A DNA stretch of 35,565 nucleotides from a virus: positions 1 through 35,565 of IMG/VR virus record IMGVR_UViG_3300046787_000082. One strand, written 5' to 3'. Position numbers and translations under genes: made by a program. Below, piece after piece: positions 6,148 through 22,950 of this stretch (positions are counted from its first letter, which is position 1; each line of letters opens with the position of its first letter). The notes beneath the pieces are model-generated. The model was not told the DNA's origin. It did not search any database and was given only the letters and a program-made list of their open reading frames with translations.

Positions 6148-8526
6148 TTATCGTGCGAGTGAGTTCTTGAACGGATTTTCAGCGAAGCAAGCGTACACAT
6201 AAGTAACACCGCTTTGGTTGAAGTTGGCATTGTCTGAGCCACGGAACTTAAATCCGTTAGACAAGATGTCAATTTGAGTTCCCCATCCGCCGTTACCTTC
6301 TACTGAAGTTGAGTTTGCAAGCAATTCAGAGTTAGTCAAGACGTTGTAGGTGTTTCGAGCAGTGTCCCACATCATCCATTGGCCTGTTGTGCTAGATGGC
6401 TTGTGGAGAATGAATCGAGGCTTAAAACCTGTGTAGACAAACGTGCCGTCAGTGCTTGAGTTACCTACGTAGCTTCCGAACTTGGAGTAGCCAGCGACTT
6501 CTGCGAACAGGTAGGCGACATAGTTGACACCAGTCGTGTTCACAAACGAACCACTGCCAACTGAGAAAACGCTGCTTGTTGGGGCGGTGTTGTTCCAGAC
6601 ACTTCCAGCAGTTGAGGCATTGGTTAGGTCGAGAAACAACGCATTACCAGCGCCAATAGACTTATGGTAAACACCCCAATCAGCCACTCCACTTCTTGAC
6701 TTGACGATATACATTGATGGGGCAACGCCAAGGCTGTGAGCGATTGTCTGTGCGCCAGCAGCCCCCGTATAGGTCACGATGTCAAAGCCAGCGGATACGC
6801 TTTCTTTCCAAACCCAATCTACATAGTTATACGAAGAACTATCAACCCGAGCAATATTGGTGGAACCAGCGGTAAACGAATATCCACTTGAGTTGAAGGC
6901 AGAAAGGTAGCCATAAATGTCATTCGTAGCTTCAGCGTCTGTATTGCTTGAGTACAGTGTCTTTGAAGCTCCGCGAACAGAGTCAAACAATGCGTGGTCT
7001 ACCGTTACGTTCCGTCCTTTGACCCATACGAAGTCAGGCTGAAAACCTAATCCAGAAACAGGTGTTGCTCCGTTTGCTCCTGTTCGTGCTTTAACATCAA
7101 AATAGGCACTACCTTTAGTGATCGTGCTGTCAGGCAGGTTGAATGTGTTCAGAGCCTTGAAGCCTGTGGGTGGGGTGTAGCTAAATGGGCGTTGACCGAA
7201 GTTGTGGTCAAACGATGTTGAGCCACCAGAGTAAGAAGTTGACGCAATAAAGAACCCAAGGCTTGATGTCAAACTGCTAAATGCAGCATTTGTCCCTGCG
7301 GCTGGATCGCCACTTGCTTGCCATGTTCCGTTCTTGCTAAACCAAACTTTTCCGTTATCAAGGTCAAGAGCGATGCCAACAACATTTCCAGAAGCGATTG
7401 AATCTCCATAAGAACTTGAACTGCCGTTGCTGTATTTGTTGCCGTTGTAAATGTAATACGAATATCCGCTAGATGTGCTTCCAACCAAACCTGCATTTGT
7501 TGTCAAATAGTTTTGTTCAGTACTGCTAGACACACCAATGAAGTTTGCACTGTTTGGTGTTCCGTTGACAGTGATCTCGCAATACCATTTGCCGCTAGTT
7601 GGAGCAATAGTTGCAAATGCGTTTTGGTACTGAGTTGTGGTTGGAGCCACATTTAAGTTTCCGCCAGCAATCGTTGGTTGGTACAGTGTTTTGTTGACAG
7701 GGTTCAACACAGCATAGTTTCCACGACCATTCCCACCATCAGCGTAAGGCGTTGGTGTGTCCAGCATTGAATCGTAGGTCGAGCCAGTAGTCACCGAGAT
7801 GTTGTTCGGTGTCCAGTTGTTGCCGTTACCTGAGCTGTCCTTACCAATGGTGGCTGCGGTGTTGTTGCTGTTGTCAGCGAAGTTCAGATAGAAGCCGTTG
7901 TTGCCGTATGTGCCTGTGTAGCGTTTAGGCTTCCACACGCCTGTGATTGTGTCTGTTTCACCGAAGCTCGATGGTGTTAGGGCTTGACCGTCAATGAAGT
8001 TGATCTCGGTGAGGTAGCCGTCATAAAAATAACCAGAAGCATCATAAGAAGAAATCTCATGTTGAGTAGTAGAATTTATGACGCTTTGTGAATTAAGTGA
8101 TGGATATATAGCCGTTCCAAAAGCGGTTACTCTGGTTCCATTTATATACAAACGCACTCTATCTGTTGATGTCGCATTAGTGGAGTCATAAACAACTACC
8201 ATGTGGAACCATGCGGCAACATCCCTAAAAACTTGAGATGTTGTCAAGTTATTTGTGTTTCCAGATTCAAGTTCTATATAAAGTGTATCCGTATCCCGAA
8301 ACATAATTTGAGAACGCTGACCAGAACCAGGATAAGCATGAAACAAATCTTGAAATGATCCAAGAGACCCGCGCTTAACCCAAGAACTCCATGTCCATGT
8401 AGTTTGGCTACCAGCACTAGCAGGTGTCCGATTCAGATAAGCACTCGCACTAGAGCGCAGACGCACAGAGCGACTAATGGTGTAGTCACCGCCAGAGTTT
8501 CCAAAACCTGTTTGTAAAACACTCAT
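6148..8526 (-). CDS. Large tail fibre / receptor-binding protein with LamG- and SPRY-like domains
   Basis: A 792-aa beta-rich protein. Residues about 20-215 look like a concanavalin/LamG fold (WTWSSWVKRGSLGSFQDLF, WFHMVVVYDST, RVRLYINGTRV). Residues about 310-450 look SPRY-like (GKWYCEITVNG, GIALDLDNGKVWFSKNGTW). The C-terminal 300 residues hold three diverged copies of one unit, beginning near GFQPDFVWVKGR, GVAPSMYIVKSR and GFKPRFILHKPS. The protein ends YACFAENPFKNSLAR, a familiar ending of this fibre type. Such lectin-like modules bind surface sugars or proteins of the host. It is the likely host-range determinant. It starts with TAATG overlap on the shorter fibre gene. Confidence 0.85.
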   Translation of the reverse strand: MSVLQTGFGNSGGDYTISRSVRLRSSASAYLNRTPASAGSQTTWTWSSWVKRGSLGSFQDLFHAYPGSGQRSQIMFRDTDTLYIELESGNTNNLTTSQVFRDVAAWFHMVVVYDSTNATSTDRVRLYINGTRVTAFGTAIYPSLNSQSVINSTTQHEISSYDASGYFYDGYLTEINFIDGQALTPSSFGETDTITGVWKPKRYTGTYGNNGFYLNFADNSNNTAATIGKDSSGNGNNWTPNNISVTTGSTYDSMLDTPTPYADGGNGRGNYAVLNPVNKTLYQPTIAGGNLNVAPTTTQYQNAFATIAPTSGKWYCEITVNGTPNSANFIGVSSSTEQNYLTTNAGLVGSTSSGYSYYIYNGNKYSNGSSSSYGDSIASGNVVGIALDLDNGKVWFSKNGTWQASGDPAAGTNAAFSSLTSSLGFFIASTSYSGGSTSFDHNFGQRPFSYTPPTGFKALNTFNLPDSTITKGSAYFDVKARTGANGATPVSGLGFQPDFVWVKGRNVTVDHALFDSVRGASKTLYSSNTDAEATNDIYGYLSAFNSSGYSFTAGSTNIARVDSSSYNYVDWVWKESVSAGFDIVTYTGAAGAQTIAHSLGVAPSMYIVKSRSGVADWGVYHKSIGAGNALFLDLTNASTAGSVWNNTAPTSSVFSVGSGSFVNTTGVNYVAYLFAEVAGYSKFGSYVGNSSTDGTFVYTGFKPRFILHKPSSTTGQWMMWDTARNTYNVLTNSELLANSTSVEGNGGWGTQIDILSNGFKFRGSDNANFNQSGVTYVYACFAENPFKNSLAR

Positions 8527-9713: not shown

Positions 9714-11798
9714 TTACTGACCGAGTACACCTGCGGCAGCACCAGCACCACCAAGCACTTTCGCCAAGAACTTCCGTTGCGCTTCATTCAATTCAAGTTT
9801 GGTAGCTGGTATTTCGGCTTTCAACGCCTTGCCTGCGGCAACTTCATTCTTTACTGCGCCCGTAACCGCATTGGTTAGACCAACCGCAATATCAGCGCCA
9901 GGGATGTGAGAAGCAGCCTTGCCAACCAATTTACCCGCTGGAGACTGCATCAAAGAAGCCACTAAAGTGTTTGATGTATTCACAGGCGCAGCGTTTGGAT
10001 GCTTTTCAATGTAGTTAGCCACACGAACCGCAGCCTCGTAGCGTTTCATTTCGCCTGGACTAAAGAACGCTGACATTTTTTCAGTTCCCAACTCACGCAA
10101 CTTTTTAGCAAGCATTTCAGGACGAATAGCTGAATCAGCCGTAATGCCTTCACCAAATGCGGCTCTGCGTAAATCTTCAGCCATCTGCGCTTTGGCTTGG
10201 TCAAATGCAGGGGTGTCGCGTAAAGTATCAGCAAGGCGCTTGACAGAATTTGTGTCTGCCTTAATGACGTACTTTTGAACAAAGTTGTCAGCGATTGCAT
10301 TGCCTTGTTGAACAGCCCCCATTGCAGGGATTTCTTCAAGCATTTTGAAGCGTTCTTTTGCGGCCTTGACCGCAGGGCCAAACACACCACCATCATCGGC
10401 AATGCTCATCACAGAATCTTTTACTGCGTTACGCAAACGACCTAATGCGGCATTGGTTGCAGGGTCATTGCTGACGTTTGCATTGATAACCTTGCCCAAT
10501 TTGTCGGCTTCTTCAACCGTAAACAGCTTGGTTTGCTTTTGACCTTCAAGACCAAACTTTTTAAACTGGTTACGCACACCACTTGGTACTTTGTCGCCAA
10601 ACTCATCCAAGACAGTCATGTAATCGTTGGCAAGACCGCCCATTGGCACTTCTAAGTCTTTGCCAGCAGATTGACGACCAGCCTTGTAAAGTTCAGAAAC
10701 TCGCTTGCTTGCCGCCGCTTCTTGCGTTGCAAGTTCACCCATCAAAACATTTCCGCCAGCATAGGCTTCTTGCGCCTTAGATGCAGGCTTGCCAAAAATG
10801 TCTTGTAAGGTACGGTTTTGCTCTGTCAATCGCTCTTGAATTGCAGGCATAGCGCCACGCAAGTTCTTTTCTTGTGCATATTGAGTTGCGTCACGGGTAA
10901 TCTGACCACGCAAAGGCTGGATGCCCAACAGTTCAAAGTCGTGCTTACGCAACAAAGCCGCAGGGTCGATTTCCTTGCCTTGGCGATACGCTTGACGTAA
11001 TTGGCTACCAACCCAATCAATTGTCTCTTTAGGGATGTTTTCAGGTGCAACGCCTGAATCTTCAAGGTCTTTGACTAATTGCTTTAGACCGTTAGCCGTT
11101 GCACTTTCAGCTTCCAAAGCAGCCGCTTTTGCAGGAACTAACTTTCGCAATCCAGCGCCTAAGACAGAACCAACTGGTTTAGCAGCAACGCCAAACAAAG
11201 CGCCACCAGCGGCTCCAGAACCCATTTCTTCAGGGTTTACAAGACCCGCAGCGGCTCCGCCAGTAACAGCACCACCACCAACACGCAAAGCCGCATTACC
11301 AGCCTTGCCGAGCGTTGTGGCGGCAGGGGCTACATCAAAACCAGCGGAACTAATTGCCTGACCAACACGACCAGCAACAGGCGCATACTTAGCAGCAGCC
11401 ATAAAAGGCTTGGCAATCACACCGCCAACTGGCGCAGTTAAAGCCGCTTCACTAGCAAATTCGCCAGCACCAGCAGACATTGGGTTTGCCACTTGATAAG
11501 GGAAAAACTCGGATTTGAGTTTCTGACGACCTTGAGCAACGTCTTCCTGCAAGGCTTTGCCTGTTTCTTCAGCACCTAAAGCAGACAATCCTTTGCCTGC
11601 CAATTCTTGAAGTGTCAAACCAACCTGACCAGTACCATAACCAAGACCAGCCAAGGCAGATTTAGCCATGCCAGGCGTTTCTAACTTGCCAGCACGAATC
11701 TTTGCAACGTGGTCTTTTAAGATTGGGTCATCAGGCTTAATGTCATCGGGAATGTCCGAGACTGTAATGCCATCTTTGGTTGTGATTGAGTAACCCAT
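9714..11798 (-). CDS. Internal virion (DNA ejection) protein, 694 aa
   Basis: A large Ala/Gly-rich helical protein. The N-terminal 30 residues form a small domain (SITTKDGITVSDIPDDIKPDD) often seen at the start of podophage ejection proteins. Residues about 40-230 contain hydrophobic Gly/Ala stretches that could insert in membranes (GGAVTGGAAAGLVNPEEMGS). The rest is long amphipathic helix. Ejection proteins leave the capsid with the DNA and build a channel across the envelope. Three such genes in a row (this one and the two upstream) match the gp7/gp16/gp20-type trio of P22-like phages in position and composition. No catalytic motif is visible. Confidence 0.8.
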   Translation of the reverse strand: MGYSITTKDGITVSDIPDDIKPDDPILKDHVAKIRAGKLETPGMAKSALAGLGYGTGQVGLTLQELAGKGLSALGAEETGKALQEDVAQGRQKLKSEFFPYQVANPMSAGAGEFASEAALTAPVGGVIAKPFMAAAKYAPVAGRVGQAISSAGFDVAPAATTLGKAGNAALRVGGGAVTGGAAAGLVNPEEMGSGAAGGALFGVAAKPVGSVLGAGLRKLVPAKAAALEAESATANGLKQLVKDLEDSGVAPENIPKETIDWVGSQLRQAYRQGKEIDPAALLRKHDFELLGIQPLRGQITRDATQYAQEKNLRGAMPAIQERLTEQNRTLQDIFGKPASKAQEAYAGGNVLMGELATQEAAASKRVSELYKAGRQSAGKDLEVPMGGLANDYMTVLDEFGDKVPSGVRNQFKKFGLEGQKQTKLFTVEEADKLGKVINANVSNDPATNAALGRLRNAVKDSVMSIADDGGVFGPAVKAAKERFKMLEEIPAMGAVQQGNAIADNFVQKYVIKADTNSVKRLADTLRDTPAFDQAKAQMAEDLRRAAFGEGITADSAIRPEMLAKKLRELGTEKMSAFFSPGEMKRYEAAVRVANYIEKHPNAAPVNTSNTLVASLMQSPAGKLVGKAASHIPGADIAVGLTNAVTGAVKNEVAAGKALKAEIPATKLELNEAQRKFLAKVLGGAGAAAGVLGQ

Positions 11799-11799
11799 A

Positions 11800-12960
11800 T
11801 TAGTAATCCACAGTTACGTTTTGATTTGCAGCGGGAGTTGCTTTCAAAAATGGGTTGCCATCTTTTGCACGACCTAAACCGAATTTGTTTTCCAAATTCT
11901 TCAAGGCTTCCATGTTTGCCTCATAACCTTTAGCTGGGTCAGTTGCAACGGATAACCACATTTGCAGTTCAGCATTAGAGTTCATCTCGGATGCAGTCAT
12001 GCCAGTAGCCTTCTTAATGTCAGCCAACAGCAAAGGTCGAGTCTGAGAAATAATGTCACGGGCTTTTTGATTTTCTGTGCCAGCAACCTGACCAGCCCAT
12101 TGACCAACACCAGTTGTTGCCAACTTAGCAGCAAGGTTAGAACCCCATTTGTTCTGTGTGCTAGGCATACCCATGCCTTGATTCAAAGCGTTGTATTGAC
12201 CAGCCAACACATTCAATGTGTCAGAAAGCGCACCACGACCAGTTCCTTTAGAAGCATTTTCTTGGGCAAACTTAGCAGCCTGTGGCGACCACAAAGAAGA
12301 ACTTGGCGGAACTTGCGAGATTGGGGTGGCAACTGATTCACCATTAGGGCCAAGAATGTTCACAATTCGTTCTGGTGGAGCAGGGCGCAATGATGCAGCA
12401 AAACGCATATTGTCTTGACGATTGCGTTGTTCTCTTTCTTGCGCTTCTCGCTTTTCGTCAGCCCTAATATGCGCTTCAGCAATACGAGCCTGACGACCAG
12501 CCTCAAGTTCAGCACCCTTAACGCCCAACTGAGCAACAGCACCTGTGTCAAGGCCAGGCGCTTTCATCGCCCATGCCAAAGTCTCGTCTGTCGTTGGTTT
12601 AACGCGCAAAGCCTTAGAGTAAGGCGATGGCCCCATTTGAGTCTGTTGTGCTTCAGGCAGCGCAGAACGGTCTTCAACTTGGTAAGTCTGCTCTTTAGGT
12701 GTGCTTTCAAGCCAAGCCTTGTTTTCAGCTTTGCGTTGCTCACCAATGCCTTTGATTTGCTTCTCAATGTCAGCTTCTTCTTTTGCACCCATGTAGCCTT
12801 GTAAGCCTTGGGCAAGATACTGAGTAATGCTAGGCTTTACATACCAGCCAGAAACCATCTGACCTTGTGGCATTTGCGCTGATTCACGCAACTTCTGTGC
12901 AAGTGCCTGCTTTTGGCGCAGGCCGATTATTTCTTCACCATATGGGTCATACGTTGCCAT
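11800..12960 (-). CDS. Internal virion (DNA ejection) protein, 386 aa
   Basis: A Gln/Ala/Glu-rich helical protein with no membrane helix. Residues about 160-200 are a charged coiled coil (RIAEAHIRADEKREAQERE and onward). The C-terminal third holds Gly/Ala-rich helices and a conserved-looking RDIISQTRPLLLADIKKATG block. It starts 14 bases before the end of the preceding ejection gene and stops just before the next one. Composition and place between two other ejection candidates are the evidence. The exact role is not known. Confidence 0.75.
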   Translation of the reverse strand: MATYDPYGEEIIGLRQKQALAQKLRESAQMPQGQMVSGWYVKPSITQYLAQGLQGYMGAKEEADIEKQIKGIGEQRKAENKAWLESTPKEQTYQVEDRSALPEAQQTQMGPSPYSKALRVKPTTDETLAWAMKAPGLDTGAVAQLGVKGAELEAGRQARIAEAHIRADEKREAQEREQRNRQDNMRFAASLRPAPPERIVNILGPNGESVATPISQVPPSSSLWSPQAAKFAQENASKGTGRGALSDTLNVLAGQYNALNQGMGMPSTQNKWGSNLAAKLATTGVGQWAGQVAGTENQKARDIISQTRPLLLADIKKATGMTASEMNSNAELQMWLSVATDPAKGYEANMEALKNLENKFGLGRAKDGNPFLKATPAANQNVTVDY

Positions 12961-14093: not shown

Positions 14094-14519
14094 TCAGGGT
14101 CGCCTGATAGATAAGAATTTACATTGTTCCCTTGTCATTGTCAAGAAATTTAAGTCACCATCAGGGCATCCATCCTTGATGACAGCTTCTTCAACAAAGC
14201 CAAGGTGCTTATCAAATTTCATTGCGTCTAGATTGCCGCTGCTCACTAAACCAACGACTTTTTTCACCTTCAACTGCTCAAAAGGGTATGAAAAGGCAAA
14301 CCAGAGAAAATCCCTCGTTAGCCACCGCTTACCCTCTCCAGCAACGTGCATACTTATTGTTGCCCCATTGTAATTGTCAAACCCAACTACGGCACACAAA
14401 ACACCATCATCTTCTAGCCCGATATACATCCCGTTATTAGGCGAATATTGGCCTTTTGTCCTCTGACAAAGCCATTGACCCAATTCTTTCTGATTTTCGG
14501 TAACTATTGTTTTTGTCAT
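14094..14519 (-). CDS. GNAT-family N-acetyltransferase-like protein, 141 aa
   Basis: The layout is GNAT-like: a beta strand with VGFDNYNGATISMHVAG, a middle helix with FLWFAFSYPFEQL, then VKKVVGLVSSGNLDAMKFDKHLGFVEEA, which holds the Asn and the helix that usually contact acetyl-CoA. The final strand is LNFLTMTREQCKFL. The ATG at 14519 has no strong ribosome site; a TTG at 14558 would add 13 residues and overlap the tail gene. It sits inside the tail/ejection cluster. The substrate could be a virion protein, a host protein or a small molecule; nothing decides this. Confidence 0.75.
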   Translation of the reverse strand: MTKTIVTENQKELGQWLCQRTKGQYSPNNGMYIGLEDDGVLCAVVGFDNYNGATISMHVAGEGKRWLTRDFLWFAFSYPFEQLKVKKVVGLVSSGNLDAMKFDKHLGFVEEAVIKDGCPDGDLNFLTMTREQCKFLSIRRP

Positions 14520-14535
14520 TTTTGAACAAATAAGA

Positions 14536-16074
14536 TTAGATGTTTCCACCGCCCTCAATGTTCATGTCATACGAATAGACGCGAATATCAGAGTATTTCG
14601 TGGAAAACTTCATGTGGAAGCTGCCCCAATACCCAAAACCATTCAGGTTTTTCCAGAGTTTGCGAACCGTAATCGAGCCACCATAAACTGAATTGTCATA
14701 GGTGGATGTGTCGTAAATAGCAGCAGGCGAGTCAATCACCGTGGGCAATGTGATCTCTTGGGCGTTCAAGTTGAAGTCAACTTCCATCCGAGCGCCGTAA
14801 GCAGCTTGGCCAGTAGAGCCAATCAGAATACGACCTAAAGACCAACGCTTTAACTGACTGCCAGCACCAAAGTTTTGATAAGCAGGCAGCACATCAGCAA
14901 CAATGTCTGTTCCGTTGTCGTTTTGGTTTGTCCAAGCCTGACCAACGTACCCGTTTGCACCGAAATACAGGTTGTCATTGACGTAATACCAGCATTTAGC
15001 GGGGATTCCTGTCCAACGTGACCAACCGCCTGAAATCGTGTTCATAACGTATTGGTACGACTCTGTTGTGCTAACAGGGATGTTTACCAACAACATATTT
15101 TGAGGCGGGAACAAAACAATGTCCCAACCTGAAACAGATTGATATTGGGTCGTGTCAGAGGCCAATTGAGGCTGAATTTTGTCCGTCAGTTGCAGCCAAG
15201 TGTTCACGCGAGATGACATTAACGACTTACTCATCTGAGCAATGCCATCTTTGTTAATCATCAAGAGATCGCCACCATACTTGCAAGTGTGACCTGTTCC
15301 TGTGGGTGTACCAATGTAAAACACACCTTGCAGCGACCAAGTTGAAGCCGTTGCAGGGTCTGTGCCTGTGAAAATAGCAACTTCACCCTCTGAGGTAACG
15401 ACCACAAAATAATCATCCAAACCAACGCCAGCATCAAGTGACCATGTGTCAATCTTGACGATCTTGCCACCGCGAGGAAAAATCGGGGCTAAATCATACT
15501 TAACCGCTGCGCCAGCGATTTGGTCTGTTGGCAAGTACCAAAGAGCCAAAGCGTTGTCAGGAGCGAACCAAAGGCGGCGTTTGTGGGCAATTACATCCCT
15601 AAACACCGTTGTGGATGGCCCTGTGATCGCGTAGGGCGATGAACTTGTTGTAACCGTGTGCCAAGTAGTCCCATCGTACAAAATGGCACTATCGGCGTTG
15701 TTTACATAGTAAGAAAAAAAGCCACCCGTGGTGGAGAAATGGCAATGCTTGAATTGTGCGCTTGTCAAACCTGTCTTGACGGTGGAACTTGCCCCGCCTG
15801 CGGTTACGTCATAGAGCGCACATGAACCACCGTTATTCACGGCAGCAATAATCAGTTGGTCGCCACTAGCAGGGCTGTAATCCATGATGGTTTCAGCGTT
15901 GCCTGTAAAAGTAGCGTGTTGGGTGTATCCCTTGCGAATCTGTAATTCAGATGGCAAGCAGAAGAAGTTGTCCAGAATAGGAGCGTAGACAGGTTCCATT
16001 GAAGGCAACGGGTCGCGCACATTCCAGCCCTTAATTGGGGCTGGTACTGAAACGATTTGAGAGGTTCTTGCCAT
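14536..16074 (-). CDS. Tail hub/nozzle-type protein (P22 gp10-like), 512 aa
   Basis: A beta-rich protein starting PAPIKGWNVRDPLPSMEP, a phrase common to podophage DNA stabilisation/tail hub proteins. Repeated strand pairs with Trp, Tyr and Gly (about residues 60-400, for example FRDVIAHKRRLWFA, GWDIVLFPPQNMLLVN) suggest a propeller-like fold. In P22-type virions this protein closes the tail tube below the adaptor. No enzyme motif is visible. It lies four genes after the tail adaptor in transcription order. Confidence 0.8.
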   Translation of the reverse strand: MARTSQIVSVPAPIKGWNVRDPLPSMEPVYAPILDNFFCLPSELQIRKGYTQHATFTGNAETIMDYSPASGDQLIIAAVNNGGSCALYDVTAGGASSTVKTGLTSAQFKHCHFSTTGGFFSYYVNNADSAILYDGTTWHTVTTSSSPYAITGPSTTVFRDVIAHKRRLWFAPDNALALWYLPTDQIAGAAVKYDLAPIFPRGGKIVKIDTWSLDAGVGLDDYFVVVTSEGEVAIFTGTDPATASTWSLQGVFYIGTPTGTGHTCKYGGDLLMINKDGIAQMSKSLMSSRVNTWLQLTDKIQPQLASDTTQYQSVSGWDIVLFPPQNMLLVNIPVSTTESYQYVMNTISGGWSRWTGIPAKCWYYVNDNLYFGANGYVGQAWTNQNDNGTDIVADVLPAYQNFGAGSQLKRWSLGRILIGSTGQAAYGARMEVDFNLNAQEITLPTVIDSPAAIYDTSTYDNSVYGGSITVRKLWKNLNGFGYWGSFHMKFSTKYSDIRVYSYDMNIEGGGNI

Positions 16075-16579: not shown

Positions 16580-16905
16580 ACGCGCTCAAGTCCACTCATT
16601 GTGACGCTCAAGCCAGTAGCAGAGCCAACAGCTAACAAAGACTCATTGATATTGAGAATTTGATAACCGTTGTATTGCATAGACGAATAAGCAGGGATTG
16701 AAGACGAATACCAGCCAAACGCATTAGCCGTGGCAACTGAGCCGATATACATTGTCAAAGTAACAGGCGCAGAAGTTGTGTTGACCACCATGATGTCAAT
16801 AATGACAGTACGCCCGTCAGGTTGAGCCGTGTAAAGCGTTGTTGAGGTCGCGTTAATAGCCTTTTGGCATAGGCGGCTTGGTGTGCCTGATAGGTTGGCG
16901 ATCAT
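16576..16905 (-). CDS. Small beta-rich structural protein, 109 aa
   Basis: Alternating hydrophobic strands dominate: TTLYTAQPDGRTVIIDIMVV, then VTLTMYIGS, then ESLLAVGSATGLSVTMSGLE. This pattern is common in small phage proteins that sit with C1q-like proteins and form part of the tail or capsid surface. It is coupled on both sides by 4-base overlaps. No enzyme or binding motif is visible. The name is a structural description only. Confidence 0.7.
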   Translation of the reverse strand: MIANLSGTPSRLCQKAINATSTTLYTAQPDGRTVIIDIMVVNTTSAPVTLTMYIGSVATANAFGWYSSSIPAYSSMQYNGYQILNINESLLAVGSATGLSVTMSGLERV

Positions 16906-18536
16906 TTTTGTTCTTTCATTTCTGGCAACTCTTTACCAAAAATCCCAAGTGGCATGGTTGCAAACATTTCAGGGCCAAACTTTTTAAACAATTCTTTACG
17001 TTCTTCGGGTGTTGAATAGTAGTAAAGGTCTTGCAGACCTTGCTTTCTCAAGTAATCAACAGACTGTTTTGGAACATCTGCTGGCAAAATTGCGCCTTTG
17101 AACTCATTAACTTGAACTGCGCGTTGTGGCTTGATTTCAAAGTATTCGGATGGCATCTTTTGAAGATTGCCAATGAATGACCTTACATCATCTTTTAAAG
17201 AATCAGGAACATCTTTGTAGAGCTTGTCTAACAAATTTACGTTTTTGGTTTGTGCAATCTCATACAAAGCATCGGAAGGCGAATAACCATATCCAGCTTG
17301 GTCTTGCAACCCACTTAACTTGCTGCTCAATGTATCCATTTCAGAATCAATTTGCTCTTTCAAAGGCTTCATTTGCTCAGAAGTGACAAGATTTTCTCTT
17401 GCGCCTTTTACTTGGTTAAAAGTTCTAAATTTTGGAGCAGCAACAGCGCGAAGACTTCCAGCGCCATACATGATGCCTTCAGAACCAGCCCCGCCTTTCA
17501 TTTCTTTCACATAATTATCTAATGTGGCAGGCACATATTTTCTATTCCCAGAATCAGTAAATCCTTTAAAAATTCGTTCTTTGACATTAACCCCAGCATC
17601 AGGTAAAGATTTTTCAAATTCATTTATCCAGTCTTTGTATTGCGCTTGACGATTATCAACAGCTTCACCAACTGCGCGTGAGTATTCCCAATCATCTTTA
17701 AAATCAGAACGATTTGGCAAACTGCCTTGCTCTTTCAAAAACTTTTCTTTGTAAAGTTTGCTGAATTCTCGATTGTCCCAATCTTGCACCAATTTATGAG
17801 TTTCATAAGAAGATTGTGGATATACATCAGAGAACAATTTGGTTAGATTTTTCTGTGATTTAGGGTCAATTTCGTAATCAATTCTTGGGGCTTTTGCCGT
17901 GTAAGCATCAAACCCAAATACAGGATTTTTTGCCGATGGAGTAGCCATCTCCTTTGGGCCAATCAAAGAAATATCGCCAAAATTGGAAAGTGGATTCTCC
18001 ACATTAGAAACAGCTATTGACGGCACAGGCATACCACCAACTTTTTCAACCTTTGCCAATTTTTCAGGGCTAATGTTGTGGTGAACAATCATTTCTTTGC
18101 CAGCTTCAACGCCAGGCACAAACGATTCACGCGCAAAAACACCAGTTACAGGTTTAATTCCCATACCAACAGGTACATTCTTAGGCAAGAACTTAGCAGC
18201 AGGGACAAGCGGAGCCACGTTCATAATGGCTTCAGCAGTCTCAGGCTTCATTAGAGGCACGTTAGCTTTGCCAATGTTTGTCAAAGGCTCACCATACGCC
18301 ATGCGTTCCGTAGTCTTTGGGATGCCTGTGGATTCAAAGTAAGCGCCCAAGCCTTGCATTTGCTGAGTGCGTTCAGGACTTCTCATCCAGTTAATGCCTG
18401 AATTCATGGCATCTGAAATCGTGCCTAAAACTTCATTTCTAGGCGTTGCTCTTAGAGCATCAACGAGTTGACGCTTTTCGTCAGTAGAACCATCGTTCCA
18501 CGAACCCTGACGGAGTAGATCAGCAAGTGTTGGCAT
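16902..18536 (-). CDS. 544-aa protein of unknown function, possible virion-delivered polyvalent-type protein
   Basis: Not a capsid or tail protein I recognise. It starts MPTLADLLRQGSWND, with helices to about residue 100. Residues about 145-200 carry MIVHHNISPEKLAKVEKVGG, then MPVPSIAVSNVENPLSNFGD and ISLIGPKE. I have seen this block in large phage/plasmid polyvalent proteins, which are enzyme-like proteins carried into cells with DNA; I do not recall its reaction. A His-Asn pair and conserved Gly, Pro and Ser could form an active site. The remainder is charged and helical, with SEGIMYGAGSLRAVAAPKFRTF (about 355-376) as a second compact block. It sits between tail adaptor and tail hub genes, so virion entry is plausible. 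Confidence 0.7.
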   Translation of the reverse strand: MPTLADLLRQGSWNDGSTDEKRQLVDALRATPRNEVLGTISDAMNSGINWMRSPERTQQMQGLGAYFESTGIPKTTERMAYGEPLTNIGKANVPLMKPETAEAIMNVAPLVPAAKFLPKNVPVGMGIKPVTGVFARESFVPGVEAGKEMIVHHNISPEKLAKVEKVGGMPVPSIAVSNVENPLSNFGDISLIGPKEMATPSAKNPVFGFDAYTAKAPRIDYEIDPKSQKNLTKLFSDVYPQSSYETHKLVQDWDNREFSKLYKEKFLKEQGSLPNRSDFKDDWEYSRAVGEAVDNRQAQYKDWINEFEKSLPDAGVNVKERIFKGFTDSGNRKYVPATLDNYVKEMKGGAGSEGIMYGAGSLRAVAAPKFRTFNQVKGARENLVTSEQMKPLKEQIDSEMDTLSSKLSGLQDQAGYGYSPSDALYEIAQTKNVNLLDKLYKDVPDSLKDDVRSFIGNLQKMPSEYFEIKPQRAVQVNEFKGAILPADVPKQSVDYLRKQGLQDLYYYSTPEERKELFKKFGPEMFATMPLGIFGKELPEMKEQK

Positions 18537-18545
18537 CGCCTAACC

Positions 18546-19454
18546 TCAAGAGGTAGTGTTGCCGAAACCAGTATCAGGAAGATTGTTCTGGGTCAGCAAG
18601 ATGTTGGGGTACTTAGGAGCCAGCGAAAGGGTATCCGCGCCAGCATCTTGTGCTTTGAACTTAGACACTTCACGCGCAAAGTCAGCTTGCAGCGCGGCAG
18701 TATCAAAGCCCTTAATTTGGAAATACTTGAGTTTTGTTCCCAAGACCAACAGGCGGTCAGGGAAAATGCTTGTGTCTGTGTCAGCAGAAAAACGAGTTTT
18801 AGCAGTTCCATCAGCACCCACAACCCATGAGCCTGATTGGTACTCAAAGCCTAAAATGACGTTTGACGTAGGCATAGGCCACACAGCAAACTTGTTGCCT
18901 TGGATACGATAACGCATCCGTGGGCCTGTCGTCACATACGAGGCTTTCAACCATTGCCACTCTTGGGCATCTTTCGGGCCAATCACAGACCAACGATTAG
19001 ATTTGTTGTATTGGGTTTTGTTGACCATCCGTTGATAATCGGAAGGCATCGCATAGTTCACTTGACCAAACGTATAGGTTTGACCTGTGTATGAACCAGT
19101 TGCGTTGATGTTGAAGTTTACGGTGCTACCAGAGGCAGAAGTCACAAAAGTGTCCTGCATGATGCCGTTACCCATCACCATGAAGTCAGAGGTCAAGCCA
19201 GTAATGCTTGACATATTGGTAAGCGCCGTAGCATTCAGAGCCACATCGCCTGTGTATTCGTGATAAACAGTTTGGAAGCGATATTCTTTGATTAGACCTT
19301 GCCAATCGTTCTCAGTCGTCAATGAGTCGCCAATGCGATACATCAACGACTGAAGTTGCTGGACAGACTCATCCGAGTTGCCAATAACCGTATTCGGTGA
19401 AGGAATACCCAACTCAAGACAGACATCCTGAATGTTTTGCAGAAGGGTACTCAT
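18546..19454 (-). CDS. Tail adaptor / head-tail connector protein (gp4-like), 302 aa
   Basis: The opening (LLQNIQDVCLELGIPSPNTV) is the usual helix of podophage adaptors, which dock on the portal and start the tail. A middle beta domain follows, then YAMPSDYQRMVNKTQY and WQWLKASYVTTGPRMRYR, the phrases typical of this family, and RLLVLGTKLKYFQIKGFD near the C-terminus. Length and place fit. It probably has no enzymatic role. Confidence 0.82.
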   Translation of the reverse strand: MSTLLQNIQDVCLELGIPSPNTVIGNSDESVQQLQSLMYRIGDSLTTENDWQGLIKEYRFQTVYHEYTGDVALNATALTNMSSITGLTSDFMVMGNGIMQDTFVTSASGSTVNFNINATGSYTGQTYTFGQVNYAMPSDYQRMVNKTQYNKSNRWSVIGPKDAQEWQWLKASYVTTGPRMRYRIQGNKFAVWPMPTSNVILGFEYQSGSWVVGADGTAKTRFSADTDTSIFPDRLLVLGTKLKYFQIKGFDTAALQADFAREVSKFKAQDAGADTLSLAPKYPNILLTQNNLPDTGFGNTTS

Positions 19455-19465
19455 AAATCACTCCA

Positions 19466-19999
19466 TTAAGATGCCTCGGATTCTACCTCATCGGTAGTTT
19501 CTTTGGGCTTTCGACCGCGCTTTGGAGCATCTCCCAAGAGTGCTGCCATCTGCGCTTGCAGTTGTTCAATTTGGGCTTGTTGTTGCTTAACAATATCGTC
19601 AGCGCCAACTTTGCCACGGTTCAAAAAGGCTTGCGCTTTCACGCGCCATTGCAAACCACCCATGACACGGACAAAAGCCGAATCAGGAGCGCCAGCAACT
19701 TGTTCAACGAAACGGAAGCCCAAATAGGCCAGTTCTCGTTTAAATCCTTCAGGTACGTCAGACCATTCCTCGATGGGTGTGCCTGTCATGCCTTGCATTT
19801 GCTTGTAAGCCGCATATTTGCGACCAAAGCGGCGGCGGTAATCTTCTGTTGCTTCTACGTCAATCTCCAGCGTTTTATCGCCAGGCACTTTGACGTTCAC
19901 AAACTCAACCTCGTTTCCATCAACGATCTTTGAGTAGAAGGTCACATCCAGAAACTCATCGCCAGAGGTATCCCCAACGTATGCGATTTCATCAGCCAT
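19466..19999 (-). CDS. Hypothetical structural-cluster protein with basic tail, 177 aa
   Basis: The N-terminus is beta-rich and acidic (FLDVTFYSKIVDGNEVEFVN). The middle has DYRRRFGRKYAAYK, then a helical section, and a Gln-rich coiled coil (VKQQQAQIEQLQAQMAAL). The end PKRGRKPKE is like an AT-hook core, followed by an acidic stretch. I have seen similar proteins beside P22-like adaptor genes in environmental phages, with no assigned function. It may bridge capsid, DNA and tail. Confidence 0.7.
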   Translation of the reverse strand: MADEIAYVGDTSGDEFLDVTFYSKIVDGNEVEFVNVKVPGDKTLEIDVEATEDYRRRFGRKYAAYKQMQGMTGTPIEEWSDVPEGFKRELAYLGFRFVEQVAGAPDSAFVRVMGGLQWRVKAQAFLNRGKVGADDIVKQQQAQIEQLQAQMAALLGDAPKRGRKPKETTDEVESEAS

Positions 20000-20012: not shown

Positions 20013-21368
20013 TTACTTACCACGAACATGAAAAAGAGATGCAATATCTCTTTCTTCTTCCCACAAAACCTCACCACGCTTAGAAAGAACTTCTTTCCAC
20101 CACGAATGAGGCTCTACGGTTAAATGTAACTGTTGCCCAATCTCAGCACCCATTACGTCAGGAACGGTCGAGATTTGAAAGAAACAGTCATTGCAAGATG
20201 ACAGAATGTTGTCTATAACTGATTCTACATCTTCAGGTGCAATGTGTTCCATTACATCACAGCAATAGCCGTGGCGAACAAGAACAGGAATTGGCATTGT
20301 CAGGTCAGCTTGCACAAATTTAAAGTGCTGCGCTTCCTTGTCGCGTGAGTTCCATGTGAAATCCACCATCAACATATCGCAGTCAACCATCTTAGAGATA
20401 GCCAAGCCGCCTCGACCAGTTCCACAGCCATAGTCACAAATCTTAGCGCCTTGCTGTGGCTTCACAACGTCAACAAAAATCTCTGCGACTTCCTCGCCAG
20501 GGCTAACTGTACGGTATTGGTCAAAGTCCCACATCATCTGATATTTGTCTTTTTCTGCCATCTTTGGAGCGTTCCAAATATCAGGCAGCAAACCATCACC
20601 AAACACCTTCACCTCGCAACCCATGCCCTGAATTGCTTTGGCTGTGTATTGGAATTTGTGGGCTTGTGACTTCATCGTGTAAGAACAGATGTATTCCTTG
20701 CCGTTAAAACGAACGGTGGTCAATGGTTCTTCAGCGTTCATTGGTTGGTCAAAAGCGTGACCAGTAACACCACGGTGGCTTGAATCGTAGCCAAAGCAAT
20801 GAATTTTGCGGTGTCCCAATGTGTAAGCGATGCAGATAGCCGAATTGCCAACAGCACTTGCGCCACCAATTAGGGCGTAGTCTTCATCGTGCGAAGGCAG
20901 AATTTCTGAAATGTCGCCAATCTCTTGATGCCACAAAATAGCATTAGGCGCACGTTCAAAGCAAAGCGGGTCTACCTGAGAAGCAAAAAGATGCTTACCT
21001 GCCTTTGAATAAACCAAATCAGCAGTTTTCACACGGGCATCCACAATGATCTGAACGTCAGGGAAAACGCCATTCTCATGCAAGAACTTGGCAGAGCCAT
21101 TCATCGCATAGACGATGTTGCCTTGTGCTTGGAGTTCTTTGATCTGGTCTAGGTGGTCAGCTAATGACGGGCCAGAGCCACACATTACAGCCGTAAGCTG
21201 GTTCTCAGGCTCTATCTTGAGCCACTCGCGTTTTACCGCAGAGTTATGTTTGATGTTGCTGATTAAAACTTCATCAGAGGTGTTGCACGTTAGTACAACT
21301 GGAATTACCAAATCCTGTGTTGTATCAGGATTGCGGCGGCGCATCAAAACATCATGTTGTGGAAGCAT
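20013..21368 (-). CDS. DUF115/MptE-like domain fused to a SAM-dependent methyltransferase, 451 aa
   Basis: Two enzymes in one chain. Residues about 55-260 match the DUF115 family (6-hydroxymethylpterin pyrophosphokinase MptE and Maf flagellin-modification proteins): VMCGSGPSLADHL at 61-73, YAMNGSAKFLHENGVFPDVQ at 87-106, VDARVKTADL, and GGASAVGNSA with HCFGYDSSHRG. Residues about 285-451 are a class I methyltransferase: motif I DYGCGTGRGG (312-321), D336 as the later acidic motif, and DVMEHI (371-376). It starts after a GC-rich hairpin that follows the decoration gene. DUF115 proteins act on sugars or pterins, so the pair may build and methylate a modified sugar or base. The substrate is unknown. 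Confidence 0.88.
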   Translation of the reverse strand: MLPQHDVLMRRRNPDTTQDLVIPVVLTCNTSDEVLISNIKHNSAVKREWLKIEPENQLTAVMCGSGPSLADHLDQIKELQAQGNIVYAMNGSAKFLHENGVFPDVQIIVDARVKTADLVYSKAGKHLFASQVDPLCFERAPNAILWHQEIGDISEILPSHDEDYALIGGASAVGNSAICIAYTLGHRKIHCFGYDSSHRGVTGHAFDQPMNAEEPLTTVRFNGKEYICSYTMKSQAHKFQYTAKAIQGMGCEVKVFGDGLLPDIWNAPKMAEKDKYQMMWDFDQYRTVSPGEEVAEIFVDVVKPQQGAKICDYGCGTGRGGLAISKMVDCDMLMVDFTWNSRDKEAQHFKFVQADLTMPIPVLVRHGYCCDVMEHIAPEDVESVIDNILSSCNDCFFQISTVPDVMGAEIGQQLHLTVEPHSWWKEVLSKRGEVLWEEERDIASLFHVRGK

Positions 21369-21391
21369 AAATTACCTGTCGAGGAATTACA

Positions 21392-21414
21392 AACCCCCCA
21401 CATTGTAGGGGGTT
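21392..21414 (-). terminator. GC-rich hairpin between decoration and DUF115-methyltransferase genes
   Basis: AACCCCC (21392-21398) pairs with GGGGGTT (21408-21414) around a 9-base loop. Reading leftward it follows the decoration gene stop by about 15 bases, and the stem is followed by only three T, so it may be a weak terminator or a transcript stabiliser. A second short inverted repeat (ATTACC at 21419-21424, GGTAAT at 21432-21437) overlaps the decoration gene 3' end. This would lower expression of the gene downstream relative to capsid genes. Confidence 0.6.
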
Positions 21415-21428
21415 CAGAATTACCCGAA

Positions 21429-21926
21429 TTAGGTAATACGGCCTTGCATACGAGGACGGTTCACAACCACTTGAACGGTTGTGCGACCAGTAGCAGCAGA
21501 AGCCACAGCAGCAACGAGTGCGCCTGTGAGTTCTTTGCCAGAGCCAGTAGAGGCAATCAGACCAATGGTTTTCACACCAACAGCAACGCCAGCAGCCAAA
21601 GAGATAGTTGCACTCTTAGCCACAACAGCGACACCGCTGATCTGATACCAACCCCATTGGCTTGCCACGTTAGCAGACATTGCCACAGCCACAGGTTGTG
21701 GTTTGTTTGTGCCAACTGGAGCCAAAGCGGTAGTGCCAGAGGTAGTGTTGTAAGTTACCAAAGAACCCACGACCGTGGAAGCCACGCCCTTGAGGTAGAT
21801 GAACTCAGCACCGCCGTAATCTGGGTCATCACCAGTAACGATTGTGCCAACAGGGTGGTTTTGAGTTGTATCGGTAACTGCGATACCTTGGAAACCAGCC
21901 AAGGGGGTAGTGATTTTGTAAGCCAT
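21429..21926 (-). CDS. Capsid decoration / stabilising protein, 165 aa
   Basis: A Gly/Ala/Val-rich beta protein starting MAYKITTPLAGFQG, with PDYGGAEFIYLKGVASTVVG (residues about 35-54) as a familiar stretch of small head proteins encoded beside the major capsid gene. No membrane or enzyme features. Directly downstream of the capsid gene with a 25-base gap and its own ribosome site (GGAAA before ATG). The role is inferred from position and composition. Confidence 0.78.
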   Translation of the reverse strand: MAYKITTPLAGFQGIAVTDTTQNHPVGTIVTGDDPDYGGAEFIYLKGVASTVVGSLVTYNTTSGTTALAPVGTNKPQPVAVAMSANVASQWGWYQISGVAVVAKSATISLAAGVAVGVKTIGLIASTGSGKELTGALVAAVASAATGRTTVQVVVNRPRMQGRIT

Positions 21927-21951: not shown

Positions 21952-22950
21952 TTAGGTGATAGACAAAGTTGCGTTGAACTGAGCGCCTGAACAAGTCAAA
22001 GCACCAGACCAGCCCATCAAGCGCACAATTGCGTCTTGGTTAACGGCTTGACGATCACCACCGATTGCAACAAAGTTGCGATCTTTGTGAGGACGGAAGT
22101 GGACAAACTTAGAGTTAATGAAGTCCATGCGAGTAGAGGTTTGGTTGCCACCGATACCACCACCCAACACAACGTCAGCAGAACCGCCTGAACCGTAGTA
22201 TTTGATCGCTGTAAAGCCAGCAGCGCCCAACTTTTCGTCAGTAATACGCTGGATGGATTGCAGAGATTGCAAATACATACCGTAAGCTGTTGTGCCTGCG
22301 TAGATCAGGTCAGGACGGTCATTACCGCGAACGCGGCTCAAAGCCACAGTGTTCATAGCTTGCTGGATGTTGGAAGCAGTCACGGCAACGCCCAAGATGG
22401 TCGAAGCTGTGTATGCGCCGTTTTGCCAGAAAGACCAAGAAGCGCGGTCGATACCACCGTAAGTGCCTGAACCAGGCGAAGTGGAGATCATTGCAGCCAA
22501 ACCGACCAAGGCTTTGCCGCCGTTGCCAGTGCCGTCACCGTGAAGGTCAACGTCAATTTTGTTAGCCAAACGAGCTTGTGCAACTTCAACGCGAGTAGCG
22601 ATCAATTCGATCATCTGCTCTTTGCCGCTGTTTTGCAACATTTCTGGGCCAGAGATAGTCACAGCGTCAGCATAATGCTTCATTGTGAACTGGGCAGCAG
22701 AAATGGGGCTATCAGGGCTAATGTTGATAGTTTCGTAACCAGAGTAGCTGTTAGCGTAGTTGGTTGCGGGGTCGTTATAGAAAATCTCTTGCAAAACGGT
22801 AGAACCACCAGAGATGGTCTTCACGTTGCCGCGCTCTTTCAAGCGAGTCAAGAGTGCGTTGTTGTTTGTCAAGTTATCTTGAGCCGATTTTGTACGGCTT
22901 TCGATGGTGGTAGCGATGATGTCGCTAATTGCGCTGTTAGCAAATGCCAT
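21952..22950 (-). CDS. Major capsid protein
   Basis: A 332-aa protein in the expected place, right after the scaffold gene. Capsid-type features: N-terminal AISDIIATTIESRTKS, LLTRLKERGNVKTISGGSTV (residues about 33-52), and a long E-loop/P-domain-like mix of strands and helices. FVAIGGDRQAVNQDAIVRLM near the C-terminus is typical of environmental P22-like coat proteins. It has an AGGAG ribosome site 8 bases before its ATG, as expected for a highly made protein. Confidence 0.85.
   Translation of the reverse strand: MAFANSAISDIIATTIESRTKSAQDNLTNNNALLTRLKERGNVKTISGGSTVLQEIFYNDPATNYANSYSGYETINISPDSPISAAQFTMKHYADAVTISGPEMLQNSGKEQMIELIATRVEVAQARLANKIDVDLHGDGTGNGGKALVGLAAMISTSPGSGTYGGIDRASWSFWQNGAYTASTILGVAVTASNIQQAMNTVALSRVRGNDRPDLIYAGTTAYGMYLQSLQSIQRITDEKLGAAGFTAIKYYGSGGSADVVLGGGIGGNQTSTRMDFINSKFVHFRPHKDRNFVAIGGDRQAVNQDAIVRLMGWSGALTCSGAQFNATLSIT

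Follow-up and report, generated by a model that had tools for sequence, protein, structure and literature searches.

Maf proteins O-glycosylate flagellin on Ser/Thr residues and have a three-domain architecture, in which Maf N- and C-terminal domains accompany a PF01973 domain that is reported to resemble the sialyltransferase Cst-II (PMC11339370). Glycosylation of phage virion proteins is also already known: according to PMC11600133, which cites Freeman et al. 2023, mycobacteriophages carry glycosyltransferase genes with an O-methyltransferase gene nearby, and modify capsid and tail tube proteins.

The stretch of viral DNA analysed here in its entirety (the window; 35,565 nt, positions 1–35,565 of IMG/VR record IMGVR_UViG_3300046787_000082, confirmed as a virus record) carries among its head genes a single enzyme in which a DUF115 domain is fused to a class I SAM methyltransferase (MT) domain. 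It has the catalytic-domain fold and sequence of Maf (PseD; 5mu5) and, like Maf (PMC11339370), is proposed to modify one dedicated, surface-exposed, multi-copy protein. Unlike Maf, it lacks the other two domains of the three-domain architecture and has the MT instead, its acceptor is proposed to be a capsid decoration protein rather than flagellin, and the gene lies in phage head operons. Compared with the mycobacteriophage system, by description only, glycosyltransferase and methyltransferase functions likewise occur together; they are there spread over several separate genes, whereas the window has one bifunctional DUF115–MT protein, and the part proposed to be modified is the decoration protein's C-terminal half, which is exchanged in one block with the enzyme. 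The MCP and head-module gene order are those of the Mx8-like phages (Mx8, Mx9, BUCT555 and ppBjS10J-1), but no full-length copy of the fusion turned up in these four or in any other record of the phage collection.

A sequence-only reading of the locus had described the combination as unfamiliar among phage systems, and this stands for the literature searched (subscription papers lay outside its scope), where queries for DUF115 or MptE-like proteins with phage returned nothing relevant. Neither the bifunctional Maf-like enzyme, nor its pairing with half of a decoration protein, nor the reversed and unfused forms presented below were found described there.

Domain identity and fold

The enzyme gene runs from 21368 to 20013 on the minus strand (ATG start, 451 aa) and was characterised by its ORF, Pfam and PHROGs matches, a family alignment and a structure model. 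Its DUF115 domain (residues 31–267; 20568..21278, minus strand) matches PF01973 (DUF115/MptE-like) over residues 36–197 (E 5e-18, 65.8 bits vs a gathering score of 34.6), with the GxGPSL motif and the conserved residues after it intact. The MT domain (residues 268–451; 20016..20567, minus strand) scores 22.1 bits against Pfam Methyltransf_25, below the gathering cut-off of 27 bits, which the relative L083 passes (34.7 bits); it is clear in PHROGs (PHROG 24759, E 7e-10), and its glycine-rich SAM motif and Rossmann-type fold are those of class I enzymes. All four motifs picked out in the sequence-only reading are present (GSGPSL 64–69, GNSA 174–177, DYGCGTG 312–318 and DVMEHI 371–376). A structure model built from 18 sequences (mean pLDDT 85) contains two confident domains, the first matching the Maf glycosyltransferase 5mu5 (Z 21.9 over 220 residues, 3.3 Å) and the second matching many solved class I SAM methyltransferases (Z 16–19). 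Among 18 diverged members the SAM-binding and DUF115 motifs are invariant or nearly so, and positions invariant across diverged DUF115 domains include S68, N90, D110, D195 and H204. Both domains are intact, and degeneration of either half is ruled out by the conserved motifs and the confident model.

The DUF115 relatives originally suggested were Maf and a pterin pyrophosphokinase, of which the former is favoured. With a profile built from diverged DUF115 domains, Maf (E 3e-16) comes ahead of MptE (6-hydroxymethylpterin pyrophosphokinase, 8sd5; E 5e-5) and Cst-II (GT42, 1ro8; E 0.08). MptE shares PF01973 and the GxGPS motif, but its match is much weaker than that of Maf and its alignment ends at D195, whereas those of Maf and Cst-II continue across the region of the invariant H204; MptE is thus not the closest relative, and the neighbouring genes in relatives also speak against a pterin kinase. 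Cst-II has a GNGPSL-type motif and a matching GxD segment, but its sequence match is not significant and it is, as reported, a C. jejuni sialyltransferase without an MT domain; its absence from the structure-match rows (VIA) is uninformative because the MT half fills those rows. Since Maf leads both the fold and the profile rankings and has the reported role described above, glycosyl transfer is the likeliest activity of the DUF115 domain, which, judged by homology, would be an active enzyme.

Gene order and the border of the exchanged block

The head module of the window is Mx8-like, in the order portal, MCP, decoration protein, enzyme, 177-aa protein, adaptor. Upstream of the enzyme gene lie the capsid decoration protein (165 aa; 21429..21926, minus strand), assigned by PHROG 29386 (head and packaging) and by fold matches, and then the Mx8-like major capsid protein (MCP; 21952..22950, minus strand; PHROG 9953, E 3e-93). 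Downstream are the 177-aa protein of no assigned function (19466..19999, minus strand) and an SU10-type adaptor protein (18546..19454, minus strand; PF24175, E 9e-8). A position inside the capsid operon, with the decoration protein on one side and tail genes on the other, is thus borne out. The same position had been called odd for a metabolic enzyme; it proves instead to be the main clue, as enzyme and decoration type are inherited together. A terminator- or attenuator-like hairpin between the decoration and enzyme genes (21379..21427, minus strand; −25.6 kcal/mol, z −4.2) had been noted as possibly lowering expression of the enzyme. It is not specific to the enzyme: relatives that have the enzyme and relatives that lack it both show strong predicted structure 3' of the decoration gene, and we therefore assign the hairpin to the decoration gene.

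In enzyme-less relatives (L009–L014) nucleotide homology to the window is 76–88% through the MCP gene and into the decoration gene, to approximately 21775, with a further patch to approximately 21643 (decoration aa 95); it is absent over most of the remaining decoration gene and the enzyme, and is found again from 20009 (from 20000 in two relatives), just past the enzyme. The 177-aa protein, 80–91% identical in L009–L015, forms the right flank. Because homology breaks within the decoration gene and resumes after the enzyme, the exchanged unit comprises the enzyme and the decoration C-terminal half (aa 95–165; 21432..21644, minus strand), which is the proposed acceptor. Conversely, L058 is much closer to the window in the decoration protein (63% identity) and enzyme (47%) than in the MCP (31%), 177-aa protein (31%) or adaptor (25%).

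Pairing and coevolution with the decoration protein

A model of the decoration protein (mean pLDDT 80) finds capsid decoration or cement proteins as its best matches, each individually weak. Two types of this protein were distinguished. Among the matches listed, DUF115 was present in the locus of 85/85 proteins of the carrier type and 0/50 of the other, the types having first been defined from loci of known enzyme status; clustering the same loci at 80% identity left 55 carrier-type and 8 other-type clusters, the enzyme-less type thus being the less diverse. A scan seeded by decoration proteins alone, all of the carrier type, yielded at least 80 loci, with DUF115 just downstream in 69/69 carrier-type and 0/11 other-type loci among the matches listed. 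The MCP tree places the window among enzyme-less phages and requires three changes of the enzyme label, and in the decoration tree all enzyme carriers form one clade (support 100). Nearest-neighbour classification by sequence was free of error for the whole protein and made one error for the C-terminal half and two for the N-terminal half. The genetic pairing of enzyme and decoration type is therefore well supported, part of it being expected from linkage, as the two genes are adjacent. One relative (L130) has two tandem carrier-type decoration genes (578–1120 and 1130–1669) upstream of a single enzyme gene.

At several columns of the decoration C-terminal half, some of them near the C-terminal end, almost every carrier-type protein has Ser/Thr and the other type seldom does; mapped by eye, that stretch in the window contains S143, T146, T149 and T150. 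Such columns are suggestive as candidate glycosylation sites.

Pairwise protein distances were correlated across 55 dereplicated phages. DUF115 follows the decoration C-terminal half closely (r 0.79; 0.78 with the MCP trend removed; 0/999 permutations as high), more so than the N-terminal part of that protein (0.49), its own fused MT (0.48), the adaptor (0.25) or the MCP (0.20); the MT itself follows the decoration C-terminal half at r 0.34. The bootstrap interval for the excess of the first correlation over that between DUF115 and MT is 0.12–0.50. Sliding along the decoration protein, the correlation rises from approximately 0.2 to 0.81; within the enzyme, values of 0.39–0.74 across DUF115, highest close to the C-terminal end of the domain, give way to 0.29 where the MT begins, although modular exchange of the MT domain would likewise lower MT correlations. 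Linkage alone predicts that the MT should track DUF115 at least as closely as a neighbouring gene does, which is not observed. The simplest reading, strongly supported though not proven, is that DUF115 recognises the decoration C-terminal half and that the MT is less tied to it. The looser tie is consistent with three relatives (L127, L132 and L133) in which DUF115 is kept and the MT is missing; as the MT can be absent, it is not essential to the enzyme–decoration pair.

Distribution of the fusion and genes in the same slot

Searches with single enzyme sequences found almost nothing, and the family was exposed only via relatives fetched by their MCP. A tblastn search of 50,697 phage records with the window fusion gave no full-length match, its sole match being to the MT part in phage MW202621; the fusion of a relative added a second weak MT match, again with no full-length match, and the DUF115 half, DUF115-only and paralogue queries matched nothing in these records. 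The first viral scan with the window fusion retrieved one partial copy (L001), and the N-half scan and first genome scan with the enzyme retrieved none. Among close MCP relatives the slot between the decoration and 177-aa genes is empty in nearly all; it holds a fusion in L053 and a GT2-containing DUF115 protein in L018. Seeding an alignment with L053 added another 19 loci, beyond L001, that have long matches; one of these, L071, is the same contig as L053.

Full fusions are present at the same place in > 70 other contigs. An assembly artefact is ruled out by these contigs and by L001, an independent contig that repeats the 3' half of the enzyme and its right-hand neighbours (98% amino acid and 91% nucleotide identity). 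The enzyme gene directly follows the decoration gene wherever the upstream flank is present, with MCPs down to 31% identity, and four more fusions in MAG contigs share the gene order; linkage to virion structural genes, with the enzyme gene right behind the decoration gene or the MCP gene, extends to other capsid lineages. The domain order is reversed (MT–DUF115) in L083 and L084, and in L084 the gene lies immediately behind that of an MCP from a different family (PHROG 267). In MW202621 the MT and a DUF115-like protein are encoded by two genes that immediately follow the MCP gene, the DUF115-like gene being weak in Pfam (E 0.002) with a GGAPSL motif. That the same two domains are joined in different ways points to linked functions. 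Stand-alone relatives of the MT domain, with no DUF115, occur in three Chlamydiae MAG contigs (L085, L086 and L087). In two loci (L103:5559–6209 and L147:5542–6159) related ORFs lie between the decoration gene and the enzyme; they have no Pfam match and appear homing-endonuclease-like by eye.

Several other occupants of the slot belong to glycan-building or glycan-tailoring families. That of L018 holds an NAD-dependent epimerase-family protein, a fusion of GT2, HdmD/PmgQ-like and DUF115 domains, and an ORF that is methyltransferase-like by eye and has no Pfam match; that of L150 a hexapeptide transferase and a DUF115 protein with a different N-terminal region; and that of L143 a polysaccharide pyruvyl transferase and a second DUF115, the last also found in L094 and L100. 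The middle domain of the L018 fusion (10561–12657, residues ~237–444) is similar to HdmD/PmgQ from phages P7 and P1, for which the annotation reads putative morphogenetic function or glycosyltransferase; no function for this domain was found among literature titles. In podovirus MW202512 (L168:1904–5337) the MCP and tail genes flank genes for a TPR protein, an FkbM-type methyltransferase and a galT-like protein, which may be a further set for virion modification at a comparable location.

Proposed function and alternative explanations

We consider it probable that the enzyme is a virion-modifying one dedicated to the adjacent decoration protein, with DUF115 glycosylating its C-terminal half and the MT tailoring the sugar. 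The domain assignments and the two-step modification foreseen in the sequence-only reading hold up, and of the targets it had listed (a sugar on the virion, a sugar on the host surface, or a nucleotide) the evidence points to the first, in the form of the neighbouring decoration protein. On this proposal the decoration protein would be produced in the infected cell, where the Maf/Cst-II-like DUF115 domain would recognise its C-terminal half and transfer a sugar from a host nucleotide-sugar, most likely to Ser/Thr. No sugar-nucleotide synthesis gene was present among the window proteins scanned, so the donor would have to be the host's; by analogy with Maf and Cst-II it may be a CMP-activated ulosonic acid. 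The fused MT would then methylate the added sugar or the finished glycan, and the modified protein would bind the capsid; since the decoration protein is located on the capsid, the head would be covered in numerous copies of the modified sugar. A benefit to the phage in particle stability, adhesion or protection is speculative.

The enzyme might act elsewhere, on another virion protein (MCP or tail) or on host-surface glycans in receptor change or superinfection exclusion, its association with the decoration gene reflecting linkage only. The two genes are indeed adjacent, and it is common for phages to encode glycosyltransferases that change sugars of the host surface. In glycosylated mycobacteriophages, moreover, the MCP and tail proteins serve as alternative acceptors (PMC11600133). 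However, DUF115 tracks neither MCP nor adaptor and follows the decoration C-terminal half more closely than its own MT, the exchanged block ends inside the decoration gene, and host-surface enzymes are not usually encoded in a late head module; we thus regard another target as unlikely. A narrower alternative accepts glycosylation of the decoration protein by DUF115 and has the MT methylate something else, for example an amino-acid side chain of that protein. Evolution of the MT partly apart from both DUF115 and the decoration C-terminal half, and its absence from three relatives, would fit; but the two domains are fused in both orders and also encoded by adjacent separate genes, and other glycan-tailoring enzymes occupy the same slot, making this quite improbable.

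Two further readings dispense with glycosylation altogether. Tight coevolution with the decoration C-terminal half would also be expected of a non-catalytic assembly factor or chaperone for that protein, a role which the near-invariance of the SAM-binding and DUF115 motifs in 18 diverged members makes very unlikely. As for an MptE-like nucleotide or pterin pyrophosphokinase making a modified cofactor or nucleotide, for instance for DNA modification, PF01973 contains and is named after MptE and the DUF115 profile does find MptE structures; but the far better match to Maf, the end of the MptE alignment before the H204 region, and the poor fit with both the decoration pairing and the glycan genes in the slot of relatives leave hardly any room for it.

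Returning to glycosylation of the decoration protein, a broader reading, towards which we lean slightly, is that enzyme and acceptor part form a portable cassette: the decoration C-terminal half and a matched bifunctional Maf-like glycosyltransferase–methyltransferase would be swapped between phages as a single unit and give the head a methylated sugar coat, the cassette being a viral counterpart of the Maf–flagellin system that lies beside the capsid genes of more than one family. If so, virion glycosylation would be a common, inherited and exchangeable trait among environmental phages whose heads are Mx8-like, and not an oddity of certain mycobacteriophages. The locus would also supply a genetically defined enzyme–substrate pair, of which two genes suffice for a test in a laboratory bacterium, a Maf-like glycosyltransferase whose acceptor is compact, and a way to study the role of capsid sugars for phages in nature.

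Other genes of the window

A late GNAT-like gene (14094–14558, minus strand) weakly matches PseH, from the pseudaminic acid pathway (E 0.015); it is ruled out as a component of the system, as an annotated GNAT is also present in this module of Mx8-like phages that lack the enzyme. Within the structural module a 544-aa late protein (16902–18536, minus strand) contains a PBECR5 nuclease-type domain (E 2e-22). A tail-fibre-like protein of 792 aa (6148–8526, minus strand) combines Laminin_G, SPRY and DUF7483 domains, and a gene on the plus strand (2417–2995) encodes a homing-endonuclease-like protein with HNH endonuclease and AP2 domains.
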